A stretch of DNA of 50,211 nucleotides. It comes from Bacillota bacterium (GTDB taxonomy: Bacteria > Bacillota > Sulfobacillia > Sulfobacillales > Sulfobacillaceae). The notes beneath the pieces were generated by a model that did no database searches, was not told where the DNA came from, and worked only from the letters and a program-made list of their open reading frames with translations. Location of the stretch: NCBI GenBank assembly GCA_021797825.1, contig JAJZZA010000019.1, positions 1 to 50,211 on the forward strand, given 5' to 3'. Numbering within the stretch: the first letter of the stretch is position 1; every line of letters begins with the position of its first letter. Shown piece after piece: positions 1,367 to 50,211 of the stretch. The translations under genes were made by a program, and so were the position numbers.

Positions 1367-3193
1367 ATGGAGCCCACCGAACGTTTTACGGTAAGTTTTT
1401 TGGAACCGGGCCTGCACATCTACCACGTCACGCTGGAGGTGGGCAATCTTCCCGCCGGCCGGCATGCGCTAAGTCTTCCGGTCTGGACCCCGGGTTCGTA
1501 TGAAGTGCGGGACTTTGCCCGCCACCTCTTCAATCTGGCCGTCAGTGCCGACGACACCGTGCTGGAAGTCTACCATGCCGCCAAGAACCGGTGGCTCTTC
1601 GAGACCGTCCGCCCGGGTGCCGTGCGCATCACCTACCAGGTGTACGCGTTTGATCCGGGGGTTTCTTTGAGCCATCTCGATCAGAGCCACGCGTTTTGGA
1701 ACGGGGCCCAGCTCTTCTTGCTGGTCGATGAATACAAGCAATTGCCCATCGAGCTCGAAATCCAGGCGCCGCCGGGTTGGATCCCCGCCACCGGATTAGA
1801 TCGCTCCCCCGACCATCCCGGTCTCTTCCGGGCGGAAAACTACGACGGACTCATCGACTCGCCCGTCGAAGTCGGCACTCACCGCACCCTGTCCTTCGCG
1901 GTGGATGGCAAGCCCCACAGCGTGGTGCTATGGGGTCAAGGCAACGAGGACACGGAGCGGTTGGCCGCCGATATCGAGCAGATTGTGCGCACCCAAGGGG
2001 AAATGTTCGGGGGGTTGCCGTATGCTCACTACACGTTTATCCTGCATTTGGGCGACCGCGGGACCGGCGGACTGGAGCATCTCAATTCCACGGTCTGCGG
2101 CATCCAGCGGTTTCAGTTCCGCCCCGAGAAGAACTACCGCAAGGTCTTAAGCCTGATCGCGCATGAATTTTTCCATTTGTGGAACGTCAAACGCATCCAT
2201 CCCGACATGCTGGGCCCCTTCGATTACAATCAGGAGACTTACGTCCGCTTGCTTTGGGCCCTGGAGGGGTTTACCGACTACTATGCGTATTTAACCCTTA
2301 GGCGGGCGGGTCTCTATACCGTCAACCATTACCTGTCCGGTTTAGCGACGCGCATCAAGCAATACGAAGCCCAGCCGGGACGCTTCGTGCAGAGTCTGAG
2401 CGAAGCCAGCTTCGACACCTGGATTAAGTACTATAAGCGCCACGCCGACTCCCCCAACCGCACCATCTCCTATTACCTCAAAGGCGATCTGGTTGGCACC
2501 TGCCTCGATCTCGAAATTCGCCAGCGGACCGCAAACCGTCAATCCCTGGACAGTGTCCTCAAACGGCTCTACCAGCGCTACGGTCAAGACGGCCTCGGAT
2601 TTCCGGAGTCGGTCTATCAAGAGACGGTGGAGGAAGTCGGCGAATCGTCATTCGAAGAGTTTTTCCGACAATATATCCACGGCGTCGCCCCGGTGCCCTT
2701 TGAGCACTATTTGGCTTACGCGGGACTGGCCCTGGAACGCCGCTACAAACAGCCGGCCAGCGACCGCGGTCCTGAGGACTCCGAAGATGTCGGGGAGGAT
2801 GAACGGGACAAACCGGTCGCGGCCGGCGAAACCTTGCCCTGGCTCGGCATCGAAACCACTCCGCACCGGCACCGGGCGACAGTGTCCGTCAGTTACACGC
2901 ACGGACCTGCCCGCGCGCTCTTAAATCCCGGAGACGAAATCGTCGCGCTGAACGGCTACCAAATCGCGGGCCCCTCCGATCTGGCCAAGCGGCTGCGATT
3001 AAACCATCGCAGCGGAGAACCGGTCGAAGTCGCCTTTTTCCGGCGAGGCCGCTTGGAGACAGCGTCCATCGTGCTGGCCGACGCGCCGTTTAACCACCTC
3101 ACCATTAAACCGTTGCCGACCGCTTCGTCCTTACAACGGACCATCTACCAGGACTGGCTAAATGCGGAGTGGCCGGAACCGGTCAGTCAATAA
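1367..3193 (+). CDS. M61 family metallopeptidase with C-terminal PDZ domain
   Basis: This is a 608-residue member of the M61 (glycyl aminopeptidase-like) family, zinc enzymes of the gluzincin fold. The N-terminal beta domain carries the family signature PGSYEVRDFARH (about 42-53). The zinc site is HEFFH (266-270), with the third ligand E300 in the block LEGFTDYY. A PDZ domain covers roughly 505-590 and presumably binds peptide C-termini. The frame is open from 863, but AAGGAGG at 1355-1361 lies 5 bases before the ATG at 1367, and the protein from there begins like other M61 enzymes, so the longer reading overlapping the aminotransferase is discarded. No signal peptide is seen, so it is probably cytoplasmic. 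Natural substrates are poorly known for this family. Confidence 0.9.
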   Translation: MEPTERFTVSFLEPGLHIYHVTLEVGNLPAGRHALSLPVWTPGSYEVRDFARHLFNLAVSADDTVLEVYHAAKNRWLFETVRPGAVRITYQVYAFDPGVSLSHLDQSHAFWNGAQLFLLVDEYKQLPIELEIQAPPGWIPATGLDRSPDHPGLFRAENYDGLIDSPVEVGTHRTLSFAVDGKPHSVVLWGQGNEDTERLAADIEQIVRTQGEMFGGLPYAHYTFILHLGDRGTGGLEHLNSTVCGIQRFQFRPEKNYRKVLSLIAHEFFHLWNVKRIHPDMLGPFDYNQETYVRLLWALEGFTDYYAYLTLRRAGLYTVNHYLSGLATRIKQYEAQPGRFVQSLSEASFDTWIKYYKRHADSPNRTISYYLKGDLVGTCLDLEIRQRTANRQSLDSVLKRLYQRYGQDGLGFPESVYQETVEEVGESSFEEFFRQYIHGVAPVPFEHYLAYAGLALERRYKQPASDRGPEDSEDVGEDERDKPVAAGETLPWLGIETTPHRHRATVSVSYTHGPARALLNPGDEIVALNGYQIAGPSDLAKRLRLNHRSGEPVEVAFFRRGRLETASIVLADAPFNHLTIKPLPTASSLQRTIYQDWLNAEWPEPVSQ

Positions 3194-46828: not shown

Positions 46829-47650
46829 CTAGCGAAATCCGAACCATCCGCGGCGGATCCGCTGCGCCACCGCCAGCACCGTGGCCCCGGCGGTCAAGAT
46901 CGCCAGCGATCCCGCCGCCATCAGCAAGGCGAGATGGACTCCGACCGCCAAAGCCGCCCCCGGAGCCGCCGTCACCCTGAAATCGCCTGCCGCGAACGTC
47001 GGCAGCCGCACCCCGCTCAGCCAGGTTTTGGCCAGCGGAAAGAATGCCACGGTAAGCACGGCGGCGTACGCTGCGTGCAATGCGCGGGCGACAAAATAGG
47101 GTTTTAGGGAAATGTCGGTGTCGGCGAGCACCGACGCCACCTGGCCGTGAACCGACAGCCCCGACCAGGCAATGATGGCTGAGACCACCGTCAACTGTTG
47201 GACCAAGGGCGCGTGCGCTCTTGCGGCTGCGGCGGATCCCAAATCAATCTCGAAAAACCCCTGCAATGTCGCATCAACCAAATGCGGCGACATGCCCAAC
47301 AGGTTAAAGAGCGCGCTTAAGGGCAGGGTCAACACCATTGCAACCCCCGTGACCTGCAACACCCGGATCAGAACGGCAAACAGCACCATGAACGACATAA
47401 TCATAAAAAGCGTTGAAACGGACTCCGATATGGCGCTGTTGAGCACTTTTCCAAGCCTGCGCCCGTCGTCGGCCCGTCCGCGCAACAGGGCGTCGTACGC
47501 CCGGCCATGAATGCCGCGCGCGCCCCATTCGGCGGTTTGCGACCGCGGCTCCTCGCGCGACTTGTAGAAGCGAAAGGTGAGACCGACCAACAACACGGAC
47601 ACATAATGGGCCAACGCCAGCACGCTGCCAAGCGCCGGATTGCCAAACAT
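46829..47650 (-). pseudogene. ylbJ: 3' part of ylbJ (sporulation integral membrane protein), interrupted by a mobile element
   Basis: This 273-residue frame matches the C-terminal two thirds of YlbJ, a nucleoside-recognition-domain membrane protein needed for the spore cortex. It begins MFGNPALGSVLALAHYVSVLL, which in YlbJ lies in the middle of the protein. Further blocks are SALFNLLGMSPHLVDA, QLTVVSAIIAWSGLSVHGQVASVLADTDI and PYFVARALHAAYAA. The coding reading continues upstream of this ATG as NTGDPLFIFGAVAVG (back to about 47695), the conserved YlbJ core, before a TAA at 47699-47701. The missing 5' third would be expected beyond the element, outside the window. As it stands the fragment is probably not functional. 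It may be restored if the element excises. Confidence 0.82.
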
Positions 47651-47770
47651 GCCTACGGCGACGGCGCCGAAAATAAAGAGGGGATCACCTGTATTGCGTT
47701 ACGAAATGCTATCGCGTGTATCTGCGAGGATTGCTCTGGTTGAGGACTAATTCGATAATCGAGACAAGCA
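47651..47770. other. left junction of the element with ylbJ (candidate attL)
   Basis: From 47651 to about 47690 the minus strand still encodes the YlbJ core (PLFIFGAVAVG). From about 47700 to the recombinase stop at 47771 the sequence is A/T-richer, has no coding match and includes the in-frame TAA at 47699-47701. The crossover should therefore lie near 47684-47700, around GGTGATCCCC on the minus strand. The exact two-base core cannot be fixed without the right junction. Confidence 0.6.
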
Positions 47771-49291
47771 TTAATCGGACAACCGAAACACAATGCGCAA
47801 CTCGTCGGTCTTCCGATTATACACGAAATGGTCCAGCACTTGGCTCAGTAAGCCCCGCCGCACCTCGACCGGATCATCATCCCGCCACTGGTGCATAATG
47901 TTCTGAAACGCCTGGGCCAGCGCGCGGTCCGGCCCGCGATCATCCGCGAGCCGCCGCTGAATGTCTTGAAGGGTGGATTCCAGTTCTGCCTGTTCCGTCG
48001 CCAGGCGCTGTTTCGCCGCTCGCAATTCATCCAAGTCTAGGATGCCTTGCTCATACGCGACGAGTTGCCGCTGAAAGCGGTCGTGCAACTGTCCCAGTTG
48101 CCGCCGCGCCGCGTTCAATTGCCGCGTCAGCTCTTCGCGGCCAGCCCATAAAATTTGATCCGGCGACAAGGTTACCTGCCCAGCGATGACTTGACGAATC
48201 GTTCCTAAAATAGCGGATTCGGCGTCGGCCATGGCCACCCAGTTGCGGTATCCCCGTTCACAGCGGTATTGATAATACCGGTAGCACGCGAGGACTTCCT
48301 TGTAGGTCCGCTCGGCAGCGGGATCGCCCCGCCGCCAATTATTGTAGGCGCGATAGTAGGTGAGCGCCCCGCCGCACAAGGCACAGCGGCCAAAGCCGCG
48401 CAAGAGATAGTCGCCCCATTCCTCCCGCCGCCCGCGGCGGCCTTGATCCAGGAGCGTTTGCACCCGAGCAAAGAGCTCAGGGCCAACAATAGGGGGATGG
48501 GCGTTTTCCACGACAATCGGTTCCGCGTCCGTTTGCGGTTGCCACCGAAATTCCCCGAGATAGGCCCGGTTTTTCAAAATGACTTTGACCCCTTGGGCGG
48601 ACCAGCGGAATTGGGCCGCTATTGGCCCGAACTGCGAAACCCCATGATCGCGCAGCCACACGGCAATGCCGTTCATCCCGCGCCGCCGCGCCGCGTATTC
48701 CTCGAAAATGCACCGGACCACCGCCGCTTCCTCGTCGACCACCGCGAACCGTCCATCGTCCCCGATGCGATACCCCATTGGCGCCAACCCCAAGGCTTGC
48801 CCGCGCGTCGCCTTTTCGCGCATGCCCTTGAGCACTTCATGAGACAAATTAGCCGAATAAAATTCCGCGATGACCTCCATGATGCCTTCGGTTAGCTTGC
48901 CCGTCGGGGTATCGTCAAACTGTTCGGTGATGGAGACGACGTCGATGCCCAGTTCCTTACGCAGGAGCGCCTTGTACACCGCGCTATCCTCGCGATTGCG
49001 GGCAAACCGATCCATCTTATGTACGAGGATCAGGTCGAACGGTTTCGGGCGTTGCTTGGCCGTGGCAATCATGCGCTGAAAGGCCGGCCGCTTGTCAGTC
49101 CGGGCTGATTCACCGGCATCAATGAAGGGCTCCACAATCGCATAGGCCCTCTGCCGGCAATATTCCCGCAGGGCATGCAGCTGAGCATCAATAGACAGGC
49201 CTTCTTGAGCCTGTTCCTCGGTGGAGACGCGAACGTAGAGCGCTGCCCGTAGCGGCTCTAGGCGCGTCGGTTTGGTCAAAGAGTTCCCCAT
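47771..49291 (-). CDS. large serine recombinase (site-specific integrase/excisionase)
   Basis: This 506-residue recombinase has a resolvase catalytic domain (about 15-160) with nucleophile S23 in LYVRVSTEEQ, and KMDRFARNREDS for the conserved Arg region. A Recombinase domain follows (about 180-285, GLAPMGYRIG). A zinc ribbon comes next, with CALC near 318 and later cysteines near 353 and 361. A long coiled coil (about 395-460) typical of phage integrases and SpoIVCA/CisA- or SprA-like proteins ends the protein. Such enzymes integrate and, with a directionality factor, excise DNA between short att sites. No clear ribosome binding site precedes ATG 49291. The gene ends 70 bases from the broken ylbJ. 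Confidence 0.93.
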   Translation of the reverse strand: MGNSLTKPTRLEPLRAALYVRVSTEEQAQEGLSIDAQLHALREYCRQRAYAIVEPFIDAGESARTDKRPAFQRMIATAKQRPKPFDLILVHKMDRFARNREDSAVYKALLRKELGIDVVSITEQFDDTPTGKLTEGIMEVIAEFYSANLSHEVLKGMREKATRGQALGLAPMGYRIGDDGRFAVVDEEAAVVRCIFEEYAARRRGMNGIAVWLRDHGVSQFGPIAAQFRWSAQGVKVILKNRAYLGEFRWQPQTDAEPIVVENAHPPIVGPELFARVQTLLDQGRRGRREEWGDYLLRGFGRCALCGGALTYYRAYNNWRRGDPAAERTYKEVLACYRYYQYRCERGYRNWVAMADAESAILGTIRQVIAGQVTLSPDQILWAGREELTRQLNAARRQLGQLHDRFQRQLVAYEQGILDLDELRAAKQRLATEQAELESTLQDIQRRLADDRGPDRALAQAFQNIMHQWRDDDPVEVRRGLLSQVLDHFVYNRKTDELRIVFRLSD

Positions 49292-49340
49292 GCTGTTAGC
49301 TTAACCGAACCGCAGGCTGTGTTGGTATACGAAGAAAAAA

Positions 49341-49505
49341 TTAAGAGGACTGGGATGTGGGCGCGGGCTCCTTGAACGCAATGTCGGGAAACCGGACTTT
49401 AAGTAGGGCTTTGGCGAAGTGATTGGCCAACGCTTCCAGCTGGGCCGGGGTCGGGTGTGCTACCGGCTGGCCGTGGGCATCGACAAACTCCACAATCACC
49501 TTCAT
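49341..49505 (-). CDS. 54-residue hypothetical protein next to the recombinase
   Basis: This small protein starts at ATG 49505, with GAGGAGGG upstream, and reads MKVIVEFVDAHGQPVAHPTP followed by a helix (AQLEALANHFAKALLK). The in-frame ATG at 49535 is less likely because that site lies after it. It ends 50 bases before the recombinase start and is probably cotranscribed with it. Small proteins in this position can be recombination directionality factors, as SprB is for SPbeta, but no similarity to SprB is claimed. A T-rich tract follows the stop. Confidence 0.6.
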   Translation of the reverse strand: MKVIVEFVDAHGQPVAHPTPAQLEALANHFAKALLKVRFPDIAFKEPAPTSQSS

Positions 49506-49676
49506 GCGAAAAGCCCTCCTCTCAGCTACTCCCATGCATATGGCGGCGGGAGGCCACGTAGACGTATTGTCCCATTCCGAGTTGAGACTGGCGTAACCTC
49601 AGACCACTGAATGCGCATCGAACAGCGCAAGGCGTTATCGTGCGACCTCAATATCGTTTACGTTACCCCTTGCAAT

Positions 49677-50132
49677 TTAACGCAGCCCGTCCATGGACCG
49701 GGCAAAATCCCGTGATTCGGCCAGAGAACGATCCAGGCCGCCGATTTGGGCACAGCCCATGGGGCCCCCGGTGCCGCGGCCCCACCCATGCGCGACCAAA
49801 TGGGACCGCTTGGCCCGTCTTGGCACGAAATGGCCCACGGCGGGGGTGGGATTCCGCTCCCGGAATGCTTTGGCGGCCGCCGCAAAGCGGCACGCGTCGA
49901 CCGCCGCCAGGAGTGCGATGGTCTGCATCACGGCTGCGCGATCGCCCTGCACTGACACATAAATGCCCGTCATCAAGGGCTCGATGCGGCCGCGGCGGAG
50001 TTGTCGGCCAATTTCCCCCGGGGTAGCAATATCCACCCACTGGGGTCCGACAATAACCTGTTTCGCGGGGGAAAAGGCGGCCAAGGCCTGGGCGACGGCG
50101 CGATGCGAGCTGTCCCACGTCAAGTGGTGCAT
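49677..50132 (-). CDS. hypothetical protein in the mobile element
   Basis: This 151-residue frame starts at ATG 50132 after GGAGG at 10-base spacing. It begins MHHLTWDSSHRAVAQALAAF and has a central segment KQVIVGPQWVDIATPGEIGRQL. The C-terminal third is Arg/Gly-rich. No family was recognised. Another frame on the same strand (49663-50163) is open but has no comparable ribosome binding site. The frame could also begin at GTG 50195. Its place within the element suggests cargo or a phage-like gene of unknown role. Confidence 0.5.
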   Translation of the reverse strand: MHHLTWDSSHRAVAQALAAFSPAKQVIVGPQWVDIATPGEIGRQLRRGRIEPLMTGIYVSVQGDRAAVMQTIALLAAVDACRFAAAAKAFRERNPTPAVGHFVPRRAKRSHLVAHGWGRGTGGPMGCAQIGGLDRSLAESRDFARSMDGLR

Positions 50133-50211
50133 GTTGGCGGAACCTCCGTAAAGTGTGTGACATATGGGCAGAGCGATGCCCGGGATATCGGCCACCTCCC
50201 GCCCGGAGATG

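Follow-up and report, generated by a model that had tools for sequence, protein, structure and literature searches.

A probable large-serine-recombinase element at a fixed attachment site in the sporulation gene ylbJ (spoVV) of Sulfobacillales

Main finding

The window (the whole stretch of DNA analysed, 50,211 bp, from genome G000, which comprises 3.59 Mb in 156 contigs) most probably carries the right junction (attR) of a large-serine-recombinase integrative element. The element is placed at a fixed attB in the Asp134 codon of ylbJ/spoVV, with the core GA, and a probability of roughly 85% is given to this reading. The attR would run in the order recombinase, attP half-site, core and 3' two thirds of ylbJ. 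Position 50211, the last of the window, still belongs to the element, so that the element's length and other end fall outside the window.

YlbJ (SpoVV) is the dipicolinic-acid (DPA) transporter of the outer forespore membrane. The mother cell produces it under sigma-E control, and DPA loading requires it; its loss in B. subtilis lowers the number of heat-resistant spores more than 10^6-fold (PMC5629000). An element lodged in this gene must therefore be cut out, tolerated or bypassed. With the element in place, no whole YlbJ would be expected from the cell. Excision at the core by the recombinase and a directionality factor (perhaps the product of a small upstream ORF) would yield an in-frame ylbJ, as would replacement of the element by another 5' half.

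Junction between ylbJ and foreign DNA

The following features were located at the junction (coordinates and strand of the window).

46829..47686, minus strand: 3' part of ylbJ/spoVV, codons 134-418 plus stop, with the B2 half-site at its 5' edge (TIGR02871, E 5e-52, profile positions 120-324)
47563..47686: 124 bp that are 100% identical to the end of contig C80 of the same genome (sequence match), fork of the split and intact states
47685..47686: dinucleotide core of the crossover, GA in the sense of the gene, codon positions 1 and 2 of Asp134 (attB/attL/attR comparison)
47687..47709, plus strand: P1 arm, an attP half-site, ACCTGTATTGCGTTACGAAATGC when read outward from the core (half-site profile)
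47699..47701, minus strand: TAA, first in-frame stop upstream of the ylbJ 3' part across the junction

On the minus strand the ylbJ frame is open from 46829 to the break. Homology to intact ylbJ stops at the core (TC/GA), and all sequence from 47687 on is foreign DNA, which sets the cut point at 47686/47687, in codon 134 of 418. The initial annotation had described a ylbJ frame interrupted at about 47690; the break is real, but that position was too loose. The TAA was given there at its correct position, and the absence of the N-terminal part was confirmed as the lack of codons 1-133 (of 418) from the window. The split is more than chance: it recurs in genomes G012, G032 and G043, and of 5,550 candidate sites in the window the half-site beside it ranks best.

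Attachment site

GA are the sole bases common to attB (C80), attL (contig C67 of the same genome) and attR (window), and the same core was found at the junctions of G012, G032 and G043. With a half-site profile built from the half-sites of other genomes, the window half-site scored 15.3 bits and ranked first among the TC-flanked sites of the window, the runner-up reaching 8.9 bits. From the two ends of the G012 element, which lie on separate contigs, GCCTTTGCTAAATAAATTCAGGT-GA-ACCGAAATTTATTTAGCAAAGGC was rebuilt, an almost perfect 48-bp inverted repeat. An inverted-repeat attP is the classical form for serine integrases. The form known for large serine integrases (about 50 bp, two inverted half-sites and a 2-bp core, beside the integrase gene) fits both the G012 arms and the window arm. 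Judged by these sequence comparisons, the ylbJ break is a large-serine-recombinase attachment site with a GA core and an attP half-site. A pattern search of IMG/VR with the attP arm returned no match.

Recombinase, upstream ORF and element interior

Beyond the junction, three further features were assigned.

47771..49291, minus strand: gene for a large serine recombinase of 506 aa, directed at the break (PF00239, E 1e-34; PF07508, E 2e-18; phrog_95 integrase, E 1e-108)
49344..49505, minus strand: conserved ORF of ~54 aa just upstream of the recombinase (homologues and alignment)
49704..50211: element interior, 72% identical to G012 C92:13184-13686 (sequence comparison)

The recombinase, which the initial annotation had also recognised as a large serine recombinase directed at the break, has its stop codon 84 bp from the core. 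It carries the Resolvase catalytic and Recombinase domains together with the catalytic serine motif (YVRVSTEEQ-type, conserved in 5 recombinase homologues) and is thereby classed as a large serine recombinase/integrase. Homologues in G012, G032, G043 and G048 are 47-72% identical. In searches of phages, plasmids and IMG/VR, the best match outside the order had ~33-34% identity, and no closer phage or plasmid relative was found. The protein thus resembles the large serine integrases (phrog_95, CcrB/XisF-like) in the order of PF00239 and PF07508, in the inverted-repeat attP of ~50 bp and in the 2-bp core, but by sequence it forms a clade of its own. The cut in ylbJ is probably made by this recombinase itself.

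The ~54-aa ORF lies directly upstream of the recombinase in G000, G012, G032 and G048 and ~6 kb upstream in G043; one further copy is present in G015, without the recombinase. It had no Pfam or PHROG match, and it was not found beside the four other G000 serine recombinases whose neighbourhoods were searched. In size and place it is a fitting candidate for a recombination directionality factor or partner, and it may serve the window recombinase as its directionality factor.

A homologous element is carried by contig C92 of G012. There, the match to the end of the window lies ~21 kb from the recombinase, so that the related elements are arranged differently. The element is assembled over only 2.5 kb in the window; no phage structural genes were recognised among the G012 proteins scanned (a subset), which included Tad-type and restriction-modification genes. 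Upstream of the recombinase, G012:C92 1-35824 (L080/L081/L050) encodes a C5-methylase with an NgoFVII-type endonuclease and Vsr, Tad/Flp-pilus-like proteins (T2SSE, T2SSF, RcpC) and a very long repeat-rich protein.

Occurrence in related genomes

A survey of 42 genomes of the order was performed with a cut-off of E < 1e-100 for the recombinase clade. The clade was present in 5/42 genomes, and 4 of those 5 are split at the same ylbJ codon (Fisher p 4e-4). The split genomes (G000, G012, G032, G043) belong to four genera. In G000 and G012 the recombinase is located directly at the junction (~23 bp from the core in G012), in G032 it is ~3 kb off and inverted, and in G043 it is found on another contig. 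When the halves were joined, a single in-frame protein of 414-421 aa resulted for each of the four split genomes, and likewise for C80. Serine-recombinase elements thus insert repeatedly at one ylbJ codon in acid-loving, spore-forming Sulfobacillus relatives. Intact ylbJ, which the initial annotation had proposed to look for in related genomes, is present in several, including Sulfobacillus thermotolerans Kr1 and S. harzensis.

G012 and G043 hold split copies of ylbJ only, and both halves show 0-1 deviations at ~74 invariant positions. Such undecayed halves suit either a recent insertion or function through excision. In two other genomes, contigs start exactly at the core (G014 C95 and G002 C102), and C95 overlaps the contig with the intact 5' half by 141 bp; the second branch of the fork was sought in G014 and G002 and was not in those bins. 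Several of the relatives are metagenome bins, and from their overlap lengths the related assemblies with forks also look metagenomic.

Split and joined ylbJ in one assembly

Two further ylbJ 5' pieces were found in G000, on contigs C67 and C80, which brings the ylbJ pieces to three. C67:17621-18025 is a 5' half ending in 'SHSAEP...stop' that departs from the ylbJ sequence directly past the core and is an attL-type junction; a 5' ylbJ fragment beside an att-like sequence, as sought by the initial annotation, thus exists in the same genome. On C80 (3.2 kb), the 5' half is continuous with the 3' half, an uninterrupted junction. Loss of the reading frame on joining the halves had been named as an argument against an intervening element; instead, the window 3' part joins in frame with the 5' half of either C80 or C67.

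C80 ends in a fixed, k-mer-like overlap exactly at the junction, which points to an assembly-graph fork. The reads probably held both a recombinase-joined and a 5'-half-joined version of one 3' half. These states could be cells of one strain or two strains, and the assembly is compatible with both. A fork is also where an assembler might fuse a recombinase contig to ylbJ, but such a chimera is very improbable, given that the same type of joint occurs in independent assemblies with different sequences (G012, G043, G032) and that the half-site motif matches across genomes.

The 5' halves of C80 and C67 differ at 12 positions and their upstream DNA is unlike; merely taking the element out of the C67-window pair would therefore not yield C80. 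The half-site arm of C67 scores lower than that of the window (7.2 vs 15.9 bits), and an older insertion may therefore have its left end on C67. Its 5' half is eroding: 6/7 amino-acid changes are derived in C67 (one is unpolarised), 4 deviations occur at 74 invariant positions and the promoter is damaged. C80 and the window 3' half have 0 deviations at the ~74 invariant positions. No G000 contig joins the element's own attL to the live 5' half (C80), the element being assembled at its right end only. Near the end of C67 a group II intron maturase domain is encoded (G000:C67 19356-20159), the likely cause of the assembly break there.

The unlike 5' halves are what would be expected if ylbJ were an ordinary integration hotspot, that is, a convenient attB whose carriers sporulate badly or not at all, the intact junction coming from other strains. 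The restriction-modification and Tad-pilus-type genes on the G012 element agree with this, being cargo typical of a mobile island. The undecayed split halves of G012 and G043 argue against it, since strains that never sporulate should lose constraint. About an even chance is given to this reading.

Comparison with sporulation-linked elements

Alternatively, the element may be developmental, as skin is: the recombinase would be turned on in the sporulating mother cell, excision would follow, spoVV would be made only there and the spore would inherit the split gene. The precedents are skin/sigK, SPbeta/spsM, vfbin/spoVFB, vrin/spoVR, gin/gerE and yin/yabG (PMC5595907, PMC4191935, PMC10747680). 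In each a large serine recombinase element precisely splits a sporulation gene that excision would rejoin in frame. Split and joined forms of yin can coexist, as they do here, and the vfbin target spoVFB encodes the DPA synthase, of the same pathway as spoVV. The ylbJ element differs from them by its repeated insertion at a single codon in several genera and by the truncated 5' copies that it leaves behind.

Point by point, the window element agrees with skin-type elements in its exact placement inside a sporulation gene, whose frame is restored once the halves are joined. The recombinase is present, and the ~54-aa ORF is a candidate directionality factor only. The promoter of ylbJ itself is clear; ahead of the recombinase or the ~54-aa ORF, a pattern search (a weak method) found no sigma-E/K-like promoter. 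A DNA search near the recombinase end found no circular (attP) junction in the G000 assembly. Of the initial annotation, the interruption of ylbJ by a serine-recombinase element accordingly stands, with a precise split and an intact junction (C80) in the same data, but developmental excision remains a plausible proposal.

Several observations nevertheless favour developmental excision. DPA loading depends on the target, a mother-cell gene under sigma-E (PMC5629000), a conserved sigma-E-like promoter precedes this gene in most of the family, and where only split copies exist neither half has decayed. The sigK gene of the same genome is also split: profile residues 5-117 are encoded within C101:29930-31871 (L141) and residues 109-226 within C131:31225-31578 (L142). 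A second large serine recombinase, with 30% identity to that of the window, lies ~110 bp from the 5' half, which makes this a skin-like element. Besides the missing promoter, the sporadic distribution (4/42 genomes) and the location in a region of foreign DNA speak for an ordinary mobile element, and the related forked assemblies, by their overlap lengths, resemble metagenome bins. Overall, a skin-like element is a real possibility, at somewhat less than even odds. Excision may serve sporulation; mother-cell timing of the excision is likewise possible, though rather short of probable.

No description of an intervening element in ylbJ/spoVV was found in the open-access literature. The gene would be a new target, in a deep-branching lineage of spore-formers, on the short list of rearranged sporulation genes.

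Probable exchange of ylbJ 5' halves

Truncated 5' halves ('SAEP..stop' followed by an attP-like arm) were found in G010, G014 (two), G022 (two), G043, G012 and G032 and on C67. In G014 and G048 an intact 5' half lies downstream of a relic on one contig; the G048 relic retains a few extra codons (NSADPLF-stop). A GTCATACC-N14-CATAGCAT promoter is mostly common to relic and intact copies and precedes ylbJ in most of the family; by the general sigma-E consensus, it is sigma-E-like. The relics form a natural record of insertion frequency. In relatives, these remnants of earlier insertions lie close to an intact ylbJ or upstream of it, which favours an ordinary hotspot, as does the replacement of 5' halves, as if insertions were costly; excision, on the other hand, would be the simplest repair.

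Within G014, G022 and G048, the 5' copies of one genome differ at about half of the 4-fold sites, but at only 3-8/123 amino acids, which most likely points to an origin in different lineages, each copy having been functional in its own. This comparison ruled out decaying local duplications as the origin of the relics in the three genomes. Decay was retained for C67, because 6/7 of its amino-acid changes are derived and its promoter is eroded.

Between G014 and G005 (one genus), the 3' half is 2.7% different and the 5' half 15.3% (p 2e-10). The step in divergence sits at the core, with 8/30 differences to the left and 1/30 to the right, and the 5' half of G014 ylbJ is thus of other ancestry than its 3' half. 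For G013 and S. harzensis the contrast is reversed. An explanation in which the 5' half is more conserved because it is mobile was not needed, as the 5' half is better conserved than the 3' half in distant classes, too.

The simplest reading of these sequences is a site-specific exchange of ylbJ 5' halves between lineages. A likely route would be integration of a composite (cargo, 5' half and active element), after which the active element alone excises. The cargo would stay behind, the resident 3' half would now follow a foreign 5' half, and the former 5' half would persist as a relic. The gene arrays in relatives suggest that arrival of a fresh 5' half may be a second route to intact ylbJ. 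The wider proposal, that spoVV of Sulfobacillales has an exchangeable front half, with elements replacing the promoter and codons 1-133 at the core, leaving relics and continuing to split and rejoin the gene in the spore cycle, is put forward tentatively, as more doubtful than probable. As far as could be found in the open-access literature, an exchange of 5' halves at a fixed recombinase site in an essential developmental gene is undescribed.

Elements of the SXT/dusA type, which use tyrosine integrases, are similar in that they place a foreign promoter and 5' coding part on the target gene. Here, in contrast, a serine-recombinase site lies 133 codons into the gene, whole 5' halves with their promoter differ in ancestry, relics remain, and the window element does not restore ylbJ. 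The SXT/dusA-type elements insert at the very 5' end, where the target gains its new start by site-specific recombination; the new N-terminus of dusA has 61% identity over 35 residues (PMC8409611).

The region upstream of ylbJ resembles an island of defence or cargo genes. In the DNA that separates relic from intact 5' halves, or that lies past a relic, genes of defence or toxin-antitoxin type were found, namely DarT/DarG (PADLOC E 1e-66, 1e-131), Beta_protein (PF14350) and Fic/Doc, at L047 (G014:C22) 1380-3088, L107 (G048:C60) and L062 (G000:C67, after attL). Just upstream of a relic 5' half, L051 (G012:C188) 342-2872 encodes a relaxase/RepB-primase fusion and a NikA-like mobilisation protein, which suggests an older mobilisable element with its end abutting the ylbJ 5' half.
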